From contig WRAC01000030.1 in NCBI GenBank assembly GCA_009780415.1, positions 1 through 35,252 on the forward strand: a stretch of 35,252 bases of DNA, written 5' to 3'. The position numbers were made by a program, and so were the translations under genes. The notes beneath the pieces are model-generated. The model made no database searches. It saw nothing but the letters and a program-made list of their open reading frames with translations, and was not told the origin of the DNA. This DNA is from Defluviitaleaceae bacterium. Lineage in GTDB: Bacteria; Bacillota; Clostridia; Lachnospirales; WRAX01. Shown here piece after piece: positions 4,691 to 35,252 of the stretch. Positions within the stretch are counted from its first letter, which is position 1. Every line of letters begins with the position of its first letter.

Positions 4691-7258
4691 ATGGGCGGCA
4701 TGACGCCAATGATGGAACAATTTATGAGGATAAAGAACGAACATCCTTATTGCTTGGTTTTTTTCAGGCTTGGGGATTTTTATGAGCTTTTTTTTGATGA
4801 CGCGCTGATTGCTTCACGGGAATTGGATTTGGTTCTTACCGGGCGCGACTGCGGCATGGAGGAGCGCGCGCCCATGTGCGGCGTGCCCCATCACGCGGCT
4901 GACGGGTACGTGGCAAGGCTTATCGAAAAGGGATATAAAGTGGCTATCTGCGAGCAGCTTGAGGACCCGAAAACGGCGAAAACCATTGTAAAGCGCGACG
5001 TGGTAAGGGTTGTGACGCCCGGAACCATCCTTGACCAAAACATTCTTGACGGCGCGAAAAACAACTATGTCGCCGCCGTTTGCGGGGACGGGAAAAGGAT
5101 TGGCATAGCCGCCGCCGATATCTCCACCGGCGAGTTCTATACATATTCCATCGCAAAGGACGCCAATAAACTGTTGGACGAGCTTACGCGCTTTACCCCG
5201 GCTGAAGTGGTTTCCCCGGAGGGTTTCATGCCCGGCGGGATAGGCGCGTTCAGGCTTACTGAACGGAACGGGTATACCTTTGAAATTAAGTCCGCGAGGG
5301 ACATCCTGCTTGACCATTTTAAGGTGCATAACCTTGAGGGGTTTGGCGTGGAGGGTGACAGCGACGCCATCCGCGCGGCGGGCGGGCTGCTGTCCTATCT
5401 GCGGGAAACGCAGAAAATATCCCTGTCGCATATAACATCGGTAAAACTATACAACAGCGGCGAATATCTGGCCATCGACGCGGCCTCGCGCCGGAACCTG
5501 GAGCTTACCGAGTCCCTTAGGGACAGAAAAAAGGCAGGTTCTCTCCTGTGGGTGCTGGACAAAACAAAATCCGCCATGGGCGCACGCGCGCTGCGCCGCT
5601 GGCTTACCGAGCCTTTAACTTCCGCGGGCAAAATCGAAACGCGCTTGGACGCGGTGGAGGAACTGAAACGAAACGGCTTTATGCGCGACAGCCTGCGGGA
5701 AGCGCTGGGAAACGCGGCTGACATTGAGCGCGTAATGGGGCGCGTTACATACGGCTTGGCTAACGCGCGCGATCTGCTGGCGTTAAAACGCACGGCCGCC
5801 GTTCTGCCGGAAGTCAAGAAGCTGCTTGAGCCGTGCGTCTCGGCGTTCCTTTCCTATTTCCGCGCCGAAACGGACACATTGCCGGATATCCATGACCTAA
5901 TACATAACTCAATAGCCGACGACCCGCCCAGTCAACTGAACGCGGGCGGTTTCATACGGGGCGGCTATAACGCCGAACTGGACGATTTCCGCCATGCAAA
6001 GAACATGGGAGCGTCGCTCATATTGGAGCTGGAGGCAAAGGAACGCGCCGGTACGGGCATAAAAACCCTTAAAATTAAATACAACAAGGTTTTCGGCTAT
6101 AACATTGAAATAACTAATTCATATCTTCACATGGCCCCCGAACGCTACAAACGCATACAAACCCTCTCGGGCTGTGAGCGTTACGCCACCGCCGAGCTGA
6201 AGGAGATAGAGGAACGCATACTGACGGCTGACGAACGGATCGCGTCGCTTGAGCTTGAGCTGTGGCGCGATATTACGGCGCGGATTTCCGCCGAGGTCAC
6301 GCGCATCCAGCACGCGGGAAACGCTTTGGCGGTGATTGACGCGCTGCAAAGCCTCGCGGAGACGGCGGAGCGGAATAAATATGTCAGGCCTAAGATTAAT
6401 ACGGCCGGGATTATTGATATAATAGACGGACGGCATCCCGTTATCGAGCGGATGCTTGACGGCGCGTTTATTCCAAACGACACGCGAATAAATATGGAAA
6501 CGGACAGACTCCTGACGCTGACCGGCCCGAATATGGCGGGCAAGTCCACTTATATGCGGCAGGTGGCGCTTATACTCGTTATGGCGCAAACCGGCAGCTT
6601 CGTTCCGGCGGTTTCGGCGGATATCGGCGTGGCGGACAAGCTGTTCACGCGCGTCGGCGCGTCGGACGACCTTGCCACGGGGCAATCAACTTTTATGGTC
6701 GAGATGGCCGAGGTGTCCAACATCCTTAACAACGCCACAAAGCACAGCCTTATCATCCTTGACGAAATAGGGCGCGGCACAAGCACTTACGACGGCATGT
6801 CAATCGCGTGGGCAACCCTTGAATACATCGCGGACGAAAAAGGCGTGGGGGCAAGAACCCTGTTCGCCACCCATTACCACGAAATGACCGAGCTTGAAGG
6901 CAAAATCCCCGGCGTTGTAAACTACAATGTTTTAGTCCGGGAATCCGGCGAAAATATCCTGTTCCTGCATAAAATCGCGAAGGGCGGGGCGGACAGAAGC
7001 TACGGCATACATGTGGCAAGGCTTGCGGGCCTGCCCAAAGCCGTTATTGACCGCGCGATGGAAATAATGGAGAAGCTGAACAAAAACGACGCGGCAAACC
7101 GCCCCGATACCGGCGAACCGGAAAAAAGCGCGGGAAACCCCGTACACTACGGCACTAACCGCCGCAGAGGCCAGAGCGGCAACCGCGTAACCATACAGCA
7201 AGCGGAGGACGGAACGCATCAGTTGTCCATCAGGGATGTGTTTAAGGATTTGAGTTAA
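4691..7258 (+). CDS. mutS: DNA mismatch repair protein MutS
   Basis: This 855-residue protein has the full MutS layout. The mismatch-binding FFRLGDFYELFFDDA motif with the Phe-x-Glu wedge is near residue 25, followed by connector, lever and clamp domains. The ATPase has Walker A GPNMAGKST (residues 612-620), GASDDLATGQSTFMVEM, Walker B ILDEIGRGTSTYDG (near 690) and FATHYHEMTEL. MutS finds base mismatches after replication and hands over to MutL. The start at 4691 follows TTGAGGGA; an ATG at 4700 is an alternative. MutL is not encoded next to it, unlike in many Bacillota. A variable, charged linker precedes the C-terminal end. Confidence 0.97.
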   Translation: MGGMTPMMEQFMRIKNEHPYCLVFFRLGDFYELFFDDALIASRELDLVLTGRDCGMEERAPMCGVPHHAADGYVARLIEKGYKVAICEQLEDPKTAKTIVKRDVVRVVTPGTILDQNILDGAKNNYVAAVCGDGKRIGIAAADISTGEFYTYSIAKDANKLLDELTRFTPAEVVSPEGFMPGGIGAFRLTERNGYTFEIKSARDILLDHFKVHNLEGFGVEGDSDAIRAAGGLLSYLRETQKISLSHITSVKLYNSGEYLAIDAASRRNLELTESLRDRKKAGSLLWVLDKTKSAMGARALRRWLTEPLTSAGKIETRLDAVEELKRNGFMRDSLREALGNAADIERVMGRVTYGLANARDLLALKRTAAVLPEVKKLLEPCVSAFLSYFRAETDTLPDIHDLIHNSIADDPPSQLNAGGFIRGGYNAELDDFRHAKNMGASLILELEAKERAGTGIKTLKIKYNKVFGYNIEITNSYLHMAPERYKRIQTLSGCERYATAELKEIEERILTADERIASLELELWRDITARISAEVTRIQHAGNALAVIDALQSLAETAERNKYVRPKINTAGIIDIIDGRHPVIERMLDGAFIPNDTRINMETDRLLTLTGPNMAGKSTYMRQVALILVMAQTGSFVPAVSADIGVADKLFTRVGASDDLATGQSTFMVEMAEVSNILNNATKHSLIILDEIGRGTSTYDGMSIAWATLEYIADEKGVGARTLFATHYHEMTELEGKIPGVVNYNVLVRESGENILFLHKIAKGGADRSYGIHVARLAGLPKAVIDRAMEIMEKLNKNDAANRPDTGEPEKSAGNPVHYGTNRRRGQSGNRVTIQQAEDGTHQLSIRDVFKDLS

Positions 7259-32360: not shown

Positions 32361-32672
32361 TTACATTAACTTTAGGGTAATGTCAACGCCCTCAGGAAGA
32401 TCAAGCCTTTGGAGCGCGTCCACGGTTTTGGGGTTGGGCGACAAAATGTCGATGAGCCGTTTATGCGTGCGTAATTCAAACTGTTCGCGGCTGTCCTTGT
32501 CGACGTGCGGAGAGCGGAGAATTGTTATAATTTCCTTCTTTGTAGGGAGCGGCACCGGGCCGCTGATCTCCGCGCCGCTGCGCTTTGCGGTCTCAATGAT
32601 TTGCGTCACGCTCTGGTCGATGGTCAGGTGATCGTAAGCTTTCAGGTTAATGCGGATCTTGTTGCCAGCCAT
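32361..32672 (-). CDS. rpsJ: 30S ribosomal protein uS10
   Basis: The 103-residue protein begins [46 protein letters not shown] and ends [12 protein letters not shown], the full uS10. The ATG at 32672 follows AAGGAGGAG; the longer frame to 32723 crosses a leader hairpin. It is the first gene of the S10-spc-alpha cluster. fusA and tuf are not upstream. Confidence 0.98.
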
Positions 32673-32694
32673 TAATTTGGTCTCCTCCTTAATA

Positions 32695-32716
32695 TTCCAG
32701 CGCCTTGCCGCTGGAA
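32695..32716 (-). promoter_or_regulatory. Hairpin in the S10 operon leader, next to the rpsJ ribosome site
   Basis: TTCCAGCG and CGCTGGAA form a perfect 8-bp stem with a 6-base loop, a few bases before the AAGGAGGAG of rpsJ, in a leader of about 190 nt (32673-32866). The leader is GC-rich and likely folded further. It has no T tract and is not a terminator. It may be a translational control element. Confidence 0.55.
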
Positions 32717-32871
32717 CGTTCACTTATCCGGGCGTATCGTGTTTAAAACACCTATCCTTAAAAACACATACAAGCCCGGTATACGGACTCCGGCTCTGCG
32801 GAAACTACCGGCGCCCACGGCTTATGGGCCGCCGCAACCTCCCGCTTCACTGCCATAATAACGCAAAAAGT

Positions 32872-32901
32872 AATATATCACACATTTTCCTAATCTGTCA
32901 A
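32872..32901 (-). promoter_or_regulatory. Sigma-A promoter of the S10-spc-alpha operon
   Basis: On the minus strand TTGACA (32901-32896), an 18-base spacer and TATATT (32877-32872) form a strong promoter. An A-rich upstream tract (TTTTGTAAAAAAAAC) resembles an UP element. Transcription would begin near 32865. Confidence 0.85.
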
Positions 32902-33185
32902 GTTTTTTTTACAAAATATTTATACTAAAACAACGGGACGACGCACCGATAACTTTATGATATGCGGACACGGGAACAAAGAGCGGTTATCGGTAAGAAA
33001 CTGTCAGCGCATTCCCGTGCCCGTGCAATAGAAATGAGAAAGTGTGAAGATGGCGGCGGCCCATACGGTGAAGTTCACAGCTATCCTTTGGCGGTGCTGG
33101 ATGATTTTATGCGGCGGGAGGGCGCGGGGGCTTTATTTGATGGTACAAATATGTTATAATCTAATTTTAATCGGAGATATTGAAC

Positions 33186-33308
33186 ATGGGTAATTTAGTA
33201 ACGAAAGTAACGACCATCGCCGACCAGCAGGAGGAAATCGAACGCCTCGAAGCAAACAACGAAACGCTGAAAATCGCATTAAACGAGTCCCTATGTAACG
33301 AACCATGA
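33186..33308 (+). CDS. Small coiled-coil protein, 40 residues, unknown
   Basis: A short frame with CGGAGAT 8 bases before its ATG encodes a 40-residue peptide whose middle (TIADQQEEIERLEANNETLKIALNES) is a clear heptad coiled coil. Small peptides like this occur in phages and integrative elements. It is the first gene beyond the ribosomal promoter and marks the start of the AT-rich accessory region. The frame at 32962-33159 before it has no ribosome site. No function is proposed. Confidence 0.5.
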   Translation: MGNLVTKVTTIADQQEEIERLEANNETLKIALNESLCNEP

Positions 33309-33317
33309 AGAATGGCA
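33304..33317 (+). repeat. 14-bp direct repeat, left copy
   Basis: CATGAAGAATGGCA here recurs exactly at 33684-33697, 380 bp to the right. The following bases are also similar (GAAATGAAAAAAC here, AAAATAAAAAAC there). The pair brackets the non-coding region with iterons and inverted repeats. The left copy overlaps the stop codon of the 40-residue ORF. Confidence 0.6.
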
Positions 33318-33460
33318 GAAATGAAAAAACCGGGAAATGTTCCAATAAACCGGGAAAAGGCGGGAAATGGGGATTTGTTGGTGGAGGTAGAAAATATTTG
33401 CCATTCTTTGTGACACTGGAAATTTGGGAAATGGGCTTTGATTGGGCCTTTTTTATTTTT

Positions 33461-33532
33461 CGTTTAGAATTGTTTAGAAAAATTTAAAAAACGTTTAGAA
33501 CCCTGTTTACATCAAGGTTTTTGACGTTTAGG
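33461..33532 (+). repeat. Four phased (C/T)GTTTAG iterons
   Basis: CGTTTAGAA (33461), TGTTTAGAA (33471), CGTTTAGAA (33492) and CGTTTAGGAA (33525) start 10, 21 and 33 bp apart, close to multiples of a helical turn. They lie in a gene-free stretch of about 490 bp (33309-33797). They could be binding sites for an integrase, a replication initiator or a partition protein. Confidence 0.6.
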
Positions 33533-33574
33533 AAATATGGGCGGCGTAAGAAAACAATACCATAAAATGGTAAA

Positions 33575-33680
33575 GACCAATCAACTAAACGCAATCAACT
33601 GGCATTATGGTTGATTGGTCAAAATTATCCTTATTTTACGCGGATTTCACGGTCTGGTATTAAATTTTAGTTGATTGGTC
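33575..33680. repeat. 15-bp inverted repeat with internal half copies
   Basis: GACCAATCAACTAAA (33575-33589) is exactly inverted as TTTAGTTGATTGGTC (33666-33680). Between them lie AATCAAC (33593-33599) and GTTGATTGGTC (33610-33620), which themselves form a hairpin. Four copies of one motif in two orientations suggest a protein-binding cluster or recombination site. Confidence 0.7.
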
Positions 33681-33683
33681 ATT

Positions 33684-33697
33684 CATGAAGAATGGCA
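33684..33697 (+). repeat. 14-bp direct repeat, right copy
   Basis: This is an exact copy of 33304-33317 and follows the 15-bp inverted repeat by 3 bp. See the left copy. The rest of the gap to the repressor stop (33698-33797) is AT-rich without visible structure. Confidence 0.6.
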
Positions 33698-33797
33698 AAA
33701 ATAAAAAACGTGTTTCTTCATTATAATGTAATACTTACATTTGAACCTAAAAATATACAATTTTTCGCTTTGAAAAATAGAAATGCAAAGCGATTAA

Positions 33798-34274
33798 TCA
33801 TCTTTTAACCAAACATTCCAAACTGTGCGTTCTAGCTGGAATTGCCAATTCTTCTGAGGTTTCATTTCTTTCTTGCCCCTCCTCCTTATTTTTGTGTAGA
33901 CCATTGGTTATTACTGGCATATGTTTACTTGTTATATCTTCCGAGCATTCAACTTCTTCTATTTTATTCAATTCATTTATAACAACATTTAAAATAGCAT
34001 GTCGTCCACGTACATCAGAGTTTCTATAAGTTGTGATAATCTGATTTTCATCTTTTGACAATTCGTTAATAATACCTTCTTTACCAGTTAACAGCCAATC
34101 GATAGAAATATTAAATATATGACTTAATCCAATCAATGTTTTAGGAGAGGGGGTGGATTTCCCTCTCTTCCAATCATTTATTGTAGTTTTTCCAACCTCT
34201 AATTTTTCGGTTAATTCCTTTGCAGTCATTTTCTCGCTTTTTAACAAGACTTCTAGCCGCTCGTTAAAATCCAT
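33798..34274 (-). CDS. CI-type helix-turn-helix repressor
   Basis: The 158-residue protein starts with an XRE/Cro-CI helix-turn-helix (FNERLEVLLKSEKMTAKELTEKLEVGKTTINDWKRGKSTPSPKTLIGLSHIFNISIDWLLTG) followed by a helical linker and a low-complexity, charged C-terminal part. No LexA-like peptidase motif is seen, so control by RecA-type cleavage is not expected. The ATG at 34274 has GGAGG 5 bases upstream; a TTG at 34286 lies inside that site. It is divergent from the Cro-like gene and probably keeps the element silent. Confidence 0.85.
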   Translation of the reverse strand: MDFNERLEVLLKSEKMTAKELTEKLEVGKTTINDWKRGKSTPSPKTLIGLSHIFNISIDWLLTGKEGIINELSKDENQIITTYRNSDVRGRHAILNVVINELNKIEEVECSEDITSKHMPVITNGLHKNKEEGQERNETSEELAIPARTHSLECLVKR

Positions 34275-34294
34275 AGTAGCCTCCAAAAATTATA

Positions 34295-34309
34295 TCGGAT
34301 ATAATCCGA
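34295..34309. promoter_or_regulatory. Operator palindrome between repressor and Cro-like genes
   Basis: TCGGAT-ATA-ATCCGA is a perfect palindrome 20 bp upstream of the repressor start. Related half-sites (TTTAATCC at 34330-34337; GATTATAGG at 34349-34357) lie in the divergent promoter, suggesting several operator sites. A TTGACA for the repressor is read leftward at 34324-34319, overlapping the rightward -35. Confidence 0.65.
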
Positions 34310-34317
34310 AATAAATC

Positions 34318-34346
34318 TTGTCAATATGATTTAATCCAATTATAAT
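34318..34346 (+). promoter_or_regulatory. Rightward promoter of the Cro-like gene
   Basis: TTGTCA (34318-34323), a 17-base spacer and TATAAT (34341-34346) form a near-consensus sigma-A promoter. The spacer contains the operator-like half-site TTTAATCC, fitting repression by the neighbour. Confidence 0.8.
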
Positions 34347-34438
34347 AAGATTATAGGAAAAATCCCGTAGGACAATTCCTATTCTACCACAAAGAGAACA
34401 AAAAAGGAAATACTTATTTTTTGTCAGGAGGGACGCGA

Positions 34439-34669
34439 ATGAATGGTGCAAAAACGCGATATTCGCAATATGGTAAGGAAATAAAGCGAAAATTGATTGA
34501 AAAAGATATGAGCCAGAAGGAACTCGCCGCGCGTGTCGGTATCCACCCGAAACGCATCAGCGATATAATTCGGGGTACTTTCCCCGGTTTGAAGTATAGG
34601 GAGAAAATATCTGAGGTTTTGGATATTCCTATAATTGAAAATGATTTGAAGCCAGCGACTAACGAATAG
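34439..34669 (+). CDS. Cro-like helix-turn-helix protein
   Basis: This 76-residue protein is a single XRE-type domain (YGKEIKRKLIEKDMSQKELAARVGIHPKRISDIIRGTFPGLKYREKISEVLDI) with a short tail. The ATG at 34439 has AGGAGGG 6 bases upstream. Small HTH proteins divergent from a CI-type repressor usually act as Cro-type antirepressors or regulators of the early operon. Confidence 0.8.
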   Translation: MNGAKTRYSQYGKEIKRKLIEKDMSQKELAARVGIHPKRISDIIRGTFPGLKYREKISEVLDIPIIENDLKPATNE

Positions 34670-34681
34670 GAGGCGTACATA

Positions 34682-35164
34682 ATGACACGTGAATTGATTT
34701 TAAGAAACAGATTAGAAATGGCTAACCACAATCTTTATTGCTATTCTGGAAATTACCTTTGTACTATCCCAAAGCAGGGCAAGGAAAAAGAATTTATTGA
34801 AGCTACCGCTGAGGTTGCTATGCTAGAGGCTTGGCTGAAGGAATTCCACAGATCGAATACGAACAGCACCCGCGAGTTTGTCGGACACATCAGCGGATGG
34901 AGCGGCGGCAGAACATATGATGACCAACCTCTGGCCAAAGATTTAATCTTCGTGGTGGATACCGGAGCCAGTTATTTAGACGGAGATCGAAGAACATTTG
35001 GCATAGCACCGGAGGTACAGGATTGGTTCATTGGAAAACATGGTAAGTGCGGGAAATATGATATCGAAAAGAATCAACGCAATAGCAGACTTGTAAAAAT
35101 TACGGTTGATAAAATTGAATATGTCCGCGCCATCGAATGGGTGGTTGCGGAAGATGCTGAGTGA
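34682..35164 (+). CDS. Unrecognised accessory protein, 160 residues
   Basis: The protein has a helical first half (about 1-60, with EFIEATAEVAMLEAWLKEF), a central segment HISGWSGGRTYDDQPLAKDLIFVVDTGASYLDGDRRTFGIAPEVQDWFIGKHGKCGKYD and a strand-rich end. No signal or membrane helix is seen. I do not recognise the family. AGGAGG precedes the ATG, and it lies 12 bp after the Cro-like gene in the same early operon. A short GGGGC-TTA-GCCCC hairpin (35166-35178) follows the stop. Confidence 0.7.
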   Translation: MTRELILRNRLEMANHNLYCYSGNYLCTIPKQGKEKEFIEATAEVAMLEAWLKEFHRSNTNSTREFVGHISGWSGGRTYDDQPLAKDLIFVVDTGASYLDGDRRTFGIAPEVQDWFIGKHGKCGKYDIEKNQRNSRLVKITVDKIEYVRAIEWVVAEDAE

Positions 35165-35233
35165 CGGGGCTTAGCCCCGGTAATGCGGGAGAGCGGGTCA
35201 CAACCCCCGCCGCAGATGGGAGGAGGTGGAATC

Positions 35234-35252
35234 ATGGATAAACAGGGTAAAA
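35234..35252 (+). CDS. 5' end of the next gene of the right-hand element, cut by the window edge
   Basis: An ATG at 35234 is preceded by a strong GGAGGAGG site and reads MDKQGK to the window end. Nothing can be said about its function. The ribosome site and the same-strand spacing make it a probable member of the early operon. Confidence 0.6.

Follow-up and report, generated by a model that had tools for sequence, protein, structure and literature searches.

The nearest described relatives of the locus reported here are transposable phages of the Mu type. In phage Mu, transposase domain Iα binds a transpositional enhancer, as described in PMC3362531; this enhancer lies to the right of the c repressor according to PMC5977238, and it is drawn together with the operator as a single element in PMC3820752. 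A 2021 paper on transposable prophages of Leptospira remarks that the enhancer-binding domain “so far appears specific to Mu” (PMC8705779). The Faecalibacterium phage Mushu is described as replicating by transposition with a 5-bp repeat (PMC5883640), and its genome encodes Mu-type transposase A and B as well as Gam. Enhancer-like modules of the phages considered below seem to be undescribed in the open-access literature.

Here we analyze a stretch of 35,252 bp (the window), which is the complete contig C30 of a Defluviitaleaceae genome assembly. It is highly probable that positions 33294–35252 form the left end of a Mu-like transposable prophage, with an inner module that the transposase reads as an enhancer.

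Left end and insertion border

A first-pass annotation had placed two exact 14-bp repeats around a gene-free block at the junction of the ribosomal cluster with a phage-like region, and a mobile phage-like element does adjoin the ribosomal region. The rpsJ gene and its S10-Clostridia leader occupy 32361–32858 on the minus strand, with the leader (32772–32858) outside the element, and G+C content drops from about 50% over 1–32700 to 33% over 33294–33797. The repeat itself, CATGAAGAATGGCA, is present at both reported positions (L1 and L3, Table 1) and extends to 25 nt at 92%; alone it is only modestly unlikely, since when the block was shuffled by dinucleotides 2000 times, 18 of the shuffles contained an exact 14-mer repeat. 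The annotation lacked a third, inverted copy (L2). The annotation had described them as flanking direct repeats. They are very probably sites of a recombinase, but neither att duplications nor the borders: they are better read as internal transposase end sites, and the border of the element lies 10 bp farther out, at the TGTA terminus. Read from host into element, TGTAA stands equally far ahead of the first site in C30 (TGTAACGAAC at 33294) and in a second contig of the assembly, C2 (TGTAAGCGGC at about C2:100974), and because this spacing is identical in the two contigs the border was set at 33294.

The claim of a gene-free block held for its interior, but the tail of a 40-codon frame (33186–33305) enters from the left. 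Within the Mu-like left-end reading, which we hold with high confidence as a whole, the left end of the prophage is inserted into this frame, which is small and lies upstream of the leader of the S10 operon. The annotation had reasoned that its reading would be refuted by a block conserved upstream of rpsJ in genomes without the phage-like genes. The comparison covered 16 genomes of the family: the rpsJ locus was obtained in 10 others (2.2 to 3.3 kb each), and five further genomes gave no match. The sites are absent from all 10 loci, AAGAATGGC occurs in none of them, and none contains a relative of the interrupted frame. The refuting outcome named in the annotation was therefore not observed.

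Table 1. Features of the prophage left end and its border, in window coordinates.
Feature	Position	Strand	Basis
Small open frame interrupted by insertion (putative gene), 36 codons	33186..33293	+	Sequence; no Pfam match above cut-off
Left terminus TGTA of prophage (probable)	33294..33297	+	Flank CCCTA on left; start and distance to L1 as in C2, L067 and relatives
End site L1 (first reported 14-mer)	33304..33317	+	CATGAAGAATGGCA; repeat search and left-end comparison
End site L2, inverted	33399..33412	-	Two mismatches to the 14-mer; layout comparison
CGTTTAG/TGTTTAG repeats	33461..33531	+	Not conserved in relatives
Enhancer-like module	33575..33680 (+281 to +386)	+	GACCAATCAAC at 33575, partial direct copy at 33592, inverted copies at 33610 and 33670
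End site L3 (second reported 14-mer)	33684..33697	+	CATGAAGAATGGCA; repeat search and left-end comparison
XRE/CI-type repressor gene	33798..34286	-	Pfam HTH_3 and Phage_CI_repr; PHROG transcription regulators
Ner-like HTH regulator	34421..34669	+	HTH_3, phrog_1468; relatives in Mushu
Early protein, 160 aa	34682..35164	+	No Pfam match; N-terminal 73 aa recur in L063/L064

Left ends for comparison were drawn from a pattern scan of genome contigs, an order-level transposase search, and IMG/VR. Eight left ends, including the window, share one layout: a TGT terminus, L1 (+14), an inverted L2 (+105 to +107; two mismatches in L244) and L3 (+390 to +394). The offsets include a one-base correction for G255, G168 and L241, whose stretches started a base too early. 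The scan of genome contigs for TGTA, L1, inverted L2 and L3 in this order returned four stretches, namely L121 (MD294), L120 and L122 (both from one clostridial MAG, that of G168), and L119 (Saprospiraceae); the last, by eye a chance coding sequence, was rejected as a left end. IMG/VR supplied L240, L241 and L244. G168, L120 and L122 belong to a single genome, and several of the left ends are therefore non-independent. Sites like those of the window (AAGAATGGCA) are found in the prophages of G255 and G168. Among viral contigs, the exact 25-mer and 20-mer of the repeat, the left-end pattern and the exact window module each gave no match, though L240, L241 and L244 hold diverged versions of the pattern. 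INPHARED contained no DNA relatives of 32700–35252, and comparison of this region with 58 relatives gave just short matches of 27–57 bases, in five of them besides the window itself.

Repeats in both orientations next to phage-like genes would also be expected if the block were the attachment site of a site-specific integrase, belonging to a prophage or an integrative conjugative element, with the repeats as arm sites. This is very improbable: relatives keep the same terminus at unlike host flanks, loci with the same ends encode a Mu-group transposase, and the sites at the right end are paired at 22 bp.

The block had also been proposed as an integration, replication or partition site, in part on account of four CGTTTAG iterons. 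Their offsets of 10, 21 and 33 bp are correct, and three copies are exact (33461, 33492 and 33525), while the fourth (33471) reads TGTTTAG. At least three copies of CGTTTAG occurred in 0 of 2000 shuffles of the block, which could favor an iteron-bearing replication origin or partition site. We give that explanation next to no credence, since the seven other left ends that share this layout all lack CGTTTAG and the larger repeats are accounted for by the end sites and the module; the most fitting reading of the block is that a transposing phage ends there.

Two further observations concern the related left ends. Contig L122 carries two nearly identical left ends 2.5 kb apart, at 5089 and 7575, the second of which interrupts a frame similar, by eye, to a PTS EIIB gene; this pairing suggests repeated insertion and deletion. 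In addition, AGTAAAATCAAGG recurs on either side of the module, at about +216 and +341, in L120, L121, L122 and G168, with a trace of this flanking motif (ATCAAGG) in the window at 33511; it is perhaps the site of a DNA-bending protein.

Right ends and genes of the element

The annotation had advised looking for the 14-bp repeat at the far end of the element. C30 is the complete window and ends at 35252, so the far end cannot fall inside it. Elsewhere in the 2.53 Mb assembly, CATGAAGAATGGCA has a single further exact copy, located where contig C2 ends (position 101006 of 101176); a copy with one mismatch precedes it by 22 bp, and the pair lies behind TGTA. Judged by this sequence, the C2 contig end is a prophage right end with sites R1 and R2. 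Two sites 22 bp apart characterize the right ends of C2, G255 and the IMG/VR contig L067, the last of which repeats the same 14-mer. The sequence flanking the left end on C30 (CCCTA) is unlike that flanking the right end on C2 (TTGAT), which means that these ends are not both junctions of one simple insertion; the right end on C2 may come from a different copy. Of four prophages tested, two had TGT ends with a 5-bp duplication, G254 (AAAAG) and G175 (GTTAG); G255 showed no target duplication between its ends as identified, and convincing ends were not found in G036. The last bases of C2 and C30 had no convincing overlap with other contigs.

Behind the left end, a minus-strand repressor gene is followed by a plus-strand Ner-like HTH gene, in the order seen in Mu and Mushu. 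The HTH gene matches five INPHARED records, three of which are Faecalibacterium phage Mushu. The 73-aa N-terminal stretch of the early protein is matched at 49% in a phage head-gene region (L063/L064) and is perhaps a shared domain. At the end of this 160-aa gene, in the prophage early region, a type-P5 twister ribozyme was detected at 35155–35209 on the plus strand (45.1 bits; gathering score 37.6).

A cognate integrase or Rep gene, which the annotation suggested searching for, is absent from the 1959 bp of the element that are present; most of the element is missing. The transposase profiles phrog_310 and PF09299 have no matches in the window's genome; phrog_310 matched 116 of 295 genomes of the order, many of these matches being weak or IS-like. 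Phage contigs are often lost from bins. IS21, with its TGT and repeated ends, was considered as a source of the junctions and rejected: PF01695 has six matches in the genome, four over the cut-off and none at the two junctions, and it also matches 13 of 14 control genomes.

The lack of a transposase on the contigs of the genome and the unlike flanks of C30 and C2 are what one would expect of a relic or small derivative (a solo end, a satellite or an IS-like element) that uses a Mu-like phage transposase from elsewhere. We regard this as unlikely. The repressor, Ner-like and early genes are ordered as in complete phages, and the contig simply stops at 35252.

An inner module that changes with the transposase in relatives

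The annotation had noted an inverted repeat with internal copies, which is present and larger than described (Table 1). This module lies between L2 and L3, and its repeats are separate from those of the end sites. The spaced three-copy arrangement occurred in 0 of 108 shuffles of 36 stretches (approximate dinucleotide-block shuffles), and the strict scan matched six of the 36 stretches: the window, Mushu, G254, G062, G094 and G168C24, with the match in G168C24 sitting elsewhere, between repressor and early genes. A relaxed scan, which gave one match in 180 shuffles (approximate dinucleotide-block), added two chance-like matches in G080 that were rejected. No module was detected in phage Mu when scanned with the 35/60 geometry. 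The left ends of L120, L121, L122 and G168 are alike by eye except for the module, whose copies change together within one phage.

Two groups of phages, named here after Mushu and the window, were surveyed for such modules. In the Mushu group, three copies in the orientation + - + of a site CAA[A/T]NNNACA were found in 30 of 81 phages examined, comprising 26 of 77 viral loci (26 of 54 among those with at least 1300 bp upstream), Mushu, G254, G062 and G094. Sites were picked by a fixed motif and a score that 0 of 231 shuffled upstreams reach (approximate dinucleotide-block), and three of 80 loci (L160, L162 and L208) were excluded as matches that came without N-terminus or upstream DNA. The window itself has the orientations + + - -. 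In its group, 13 of 61 viral loci carry a + + - layout whose direct copies are spaced at 14 bp; the remaining spacings in the range 11 to 18 together yielded five matches, and five shuffling rounds (approximate) yielded one. Five of 66 loci in this group (L238, L270, L277, L295 and L299) were excluded as being without N-terminus or upstream DNA.

Across the 30 Mushu-group phages, the module and the transposase change in concert. Five residues of one helix are shared at 71.5% between phages with the same site (73 pairs) and at 22.5% between phages with different sites (362 pairs), a same-site value matched by 0 of 2000 label shuffles in a statistic that ignores kinship. The eight residues ahead of the helix show no such difference (69.0 versus 68.6%). 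Nor does the remaining transposase (54.5 versus 53.6%), and this equality indicates that overall relatedness is not the explanation. Over the whole protein, the columns best associated with the site correspond to Mushu residues 15, 18, 19 and 22, all in the second helix of a predicted winged HTH. The correspondence can be written out: (i) GGG sites occur with [YF][ED]..[KR]K, (ii) GTG with YNT..Q, (iii) TCT with YK...[QS], and (iv) CGG with YDT.QK. The G062 and G094 transposases are only 49% identical, yet have SYEAMKKK and the site RCAATGGGAC in common; those of G094 and G254 are 89% identical and unlike in both helix and site. When the same 30 loci were searched by tblastn for a further copy of the transposase domain, 29 had none and L206 gave one weak match (E 0.019).

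A similar association holds for 11 phages of the window's group, in which the helix residue Q accompanies CGA (4/4), R accompanies GGA (6/6) and E accompanies CAAA (1/1). This tabulation was made after exclusion of L272 (two mismatches), and omits L243 (a near-copy of L242), L239 (a copy of G255) and L245 (N-terminus outside the frame read). Three transposases of the group that are ~92% identical have most of their differences in the helix and the wing behind it. The window module, CCAATCAAC, fits none of the Q, R and E classes. The transposase of G296:C45 (L136) combines the G255 wing with an IR helix, and the partner that the helix code would predict for it is the left end of L120 (TTGCGGAAC), which sits on a different contig of that genome.

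Phage repressor operators also come in several copies and change quickly between relatives; the repressors of L120, G255 and G168 differ by eye, and operator and enhancer are one in Mu (PMC3820752). The left end could be Mu-like with a module that serves as the repressor operator and not as a transposase site. Against this stand the residue-by-residue tracking of the transposase helix by the site in 30 phages and the placement of the module in the window, at +224 before the repressor gene, on its 3′ side, together with the absence of the module core from the repressor–ner region of the window. We judge the operator explanation to be quite improbable, and this placement suggests that enhancer and operator may be separate. 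The module core also appears as single 8-mers at 2584 and 6683 of the window, in host DNA. Of the 30 loci in the Mushu group, 29 have, as the first frame of 90 codons or more after the module, one on the minus strand at +95 to +220, only some of these frames being known repressors; the exception is L189 (+553).

Candidate operators were seen at other positions. A palindrome around ATTATATCGGATATAAT at 34289–34306, between the repressor and HTH genes, is by its position perhaps the repressor operator. In the G168:C24 left end (L109), a cluster of repeats with 35/60 spacing lies at about +2853 to +2975, in the interval between repressor and early genes; its letters are unlike those of the end module, and it too is perhaps an operator.

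Predicted fold of the N-terminal domain

Foldseek searches of the PDB with the N-terminal domains of both groups ranked 1TNS, the DNA-binding domain of Mu transposase, first with a probability of 1.00 and weak E-values (0.01 and 0.02). In VIA, where the Z-scores of the fold matches were below 8, 1TNS scored 7.8 (rmsd 4.2, 74 aligned) and 7.3 (rmsd 4.1, 74 aligned), and the Mu repressor domain 1QPM scored 7.4 (rmsd 2.8, 67 aligned) and 7.2 (rmsd 2.4, 67 aligned). For the second group, the MerR-like regulator BldC reached a Z of 7.8 (rmsd 2.5, 54 aligned), as high as 1TNS. Of the folds compared, that of the enhancer-binding domain in Mu transposase is the nearest to the one predicted for the N-terminal domain. 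A PDB search by sequence returned only weak matches (LacI headpiece, E 0.42) and was not used as evidence.

Discussion

The module at 33575–33680 is most likely a transposition enhancer, because in relatives it covaries with the recognition helix and because the predicted fold of the domain is nearest to the enhancer-binding domain of Mu. Since the window's own transposase was not found, we infer this role for the window by analogy with those relatives. In the proposed mechanism, the transposase would bind L1, inverted L2 and L3 at the left end and R1 and R2 at the right end, while its N-terminal winged-helix domain would bind the module. The module would thereby act as a third cis site that helps to join both ends and favors the phage's own transposase. 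On this model, the transposase of the window phage would read the module, which would be needed for transposition and would confer identity.

More generally, clostridial (and related) transposable phages may use a transposase-read enhancer, set apart from the repressor promoter, as an identity tag, all copies of which are switched together with a few helix and wing residues; we advance this tentatively, at slightly less than even chances. If true, several phages with near-identical ends and transposases could share one genome without mobilizing each other, and the site-to-helix code would be simple enough for partners to be predicted from sequence. In one MAG, at least three left ends (G168 C24, L120 and L122) are told apart mainly by the module. 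The results suggest that two more transposase groups have a domain of this kind together with a matching module, seen in more than 40 phages in all, and that the protein–DNA code is readable. Part swaps could test whether the enhancer chooses the transposase, whether it can be uncoupled from repression, and whether it forms a barrier between co-resident phages. The approach also offers a means of locating prophage ends of this kind in draft genomes, whose contigs break at them as here.

Comparison with known systems

One close counterpart is the Mu-like prophage of Clostridium sp. MD294/ASF356 (NZ_CP097810; G255, L121), which has the same end site, the same L1–L2–L3 layout and a module in nearly the same place. 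It differs in module sequence (ATTGACGAAC against ACCAATCAAC) and in possessing a transposase, whereas the window contig stops ahead of such a gene. Faecalibacterium phage Mushu (MG711460) shares TGT ends, two right-end sites 22 bp apart, a minus-strand XRE repressor near the left end, a Ner-like HTH and a three-copy module left of the repressor; however, its end-site sequence is different, its module is laid out + - +, and its transposase is about 22% identical to that of G255 (136 of 627). Phage Mu likewise has a TG terminus, three left-end transposase sites, a minus-strand repressor followed by plus-strand ner, and an internal site, distinct from the end sites, that the N-terminal winged-helix domain of its transposase reads, a role that is putative here. 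The spacing of end sites departs from that given for Pseudomonas Mu-like phages, in which the corresponding site is placed 124 bp from the end (PMC4378225); in the window, L3 is 380 bp from L1. Unlike in Mu, the enhancer-like module of the window lies to the left of the repressor gene, not to the right, and the repressor is of the XRE/CI type, unlike the Mu repressor domain.
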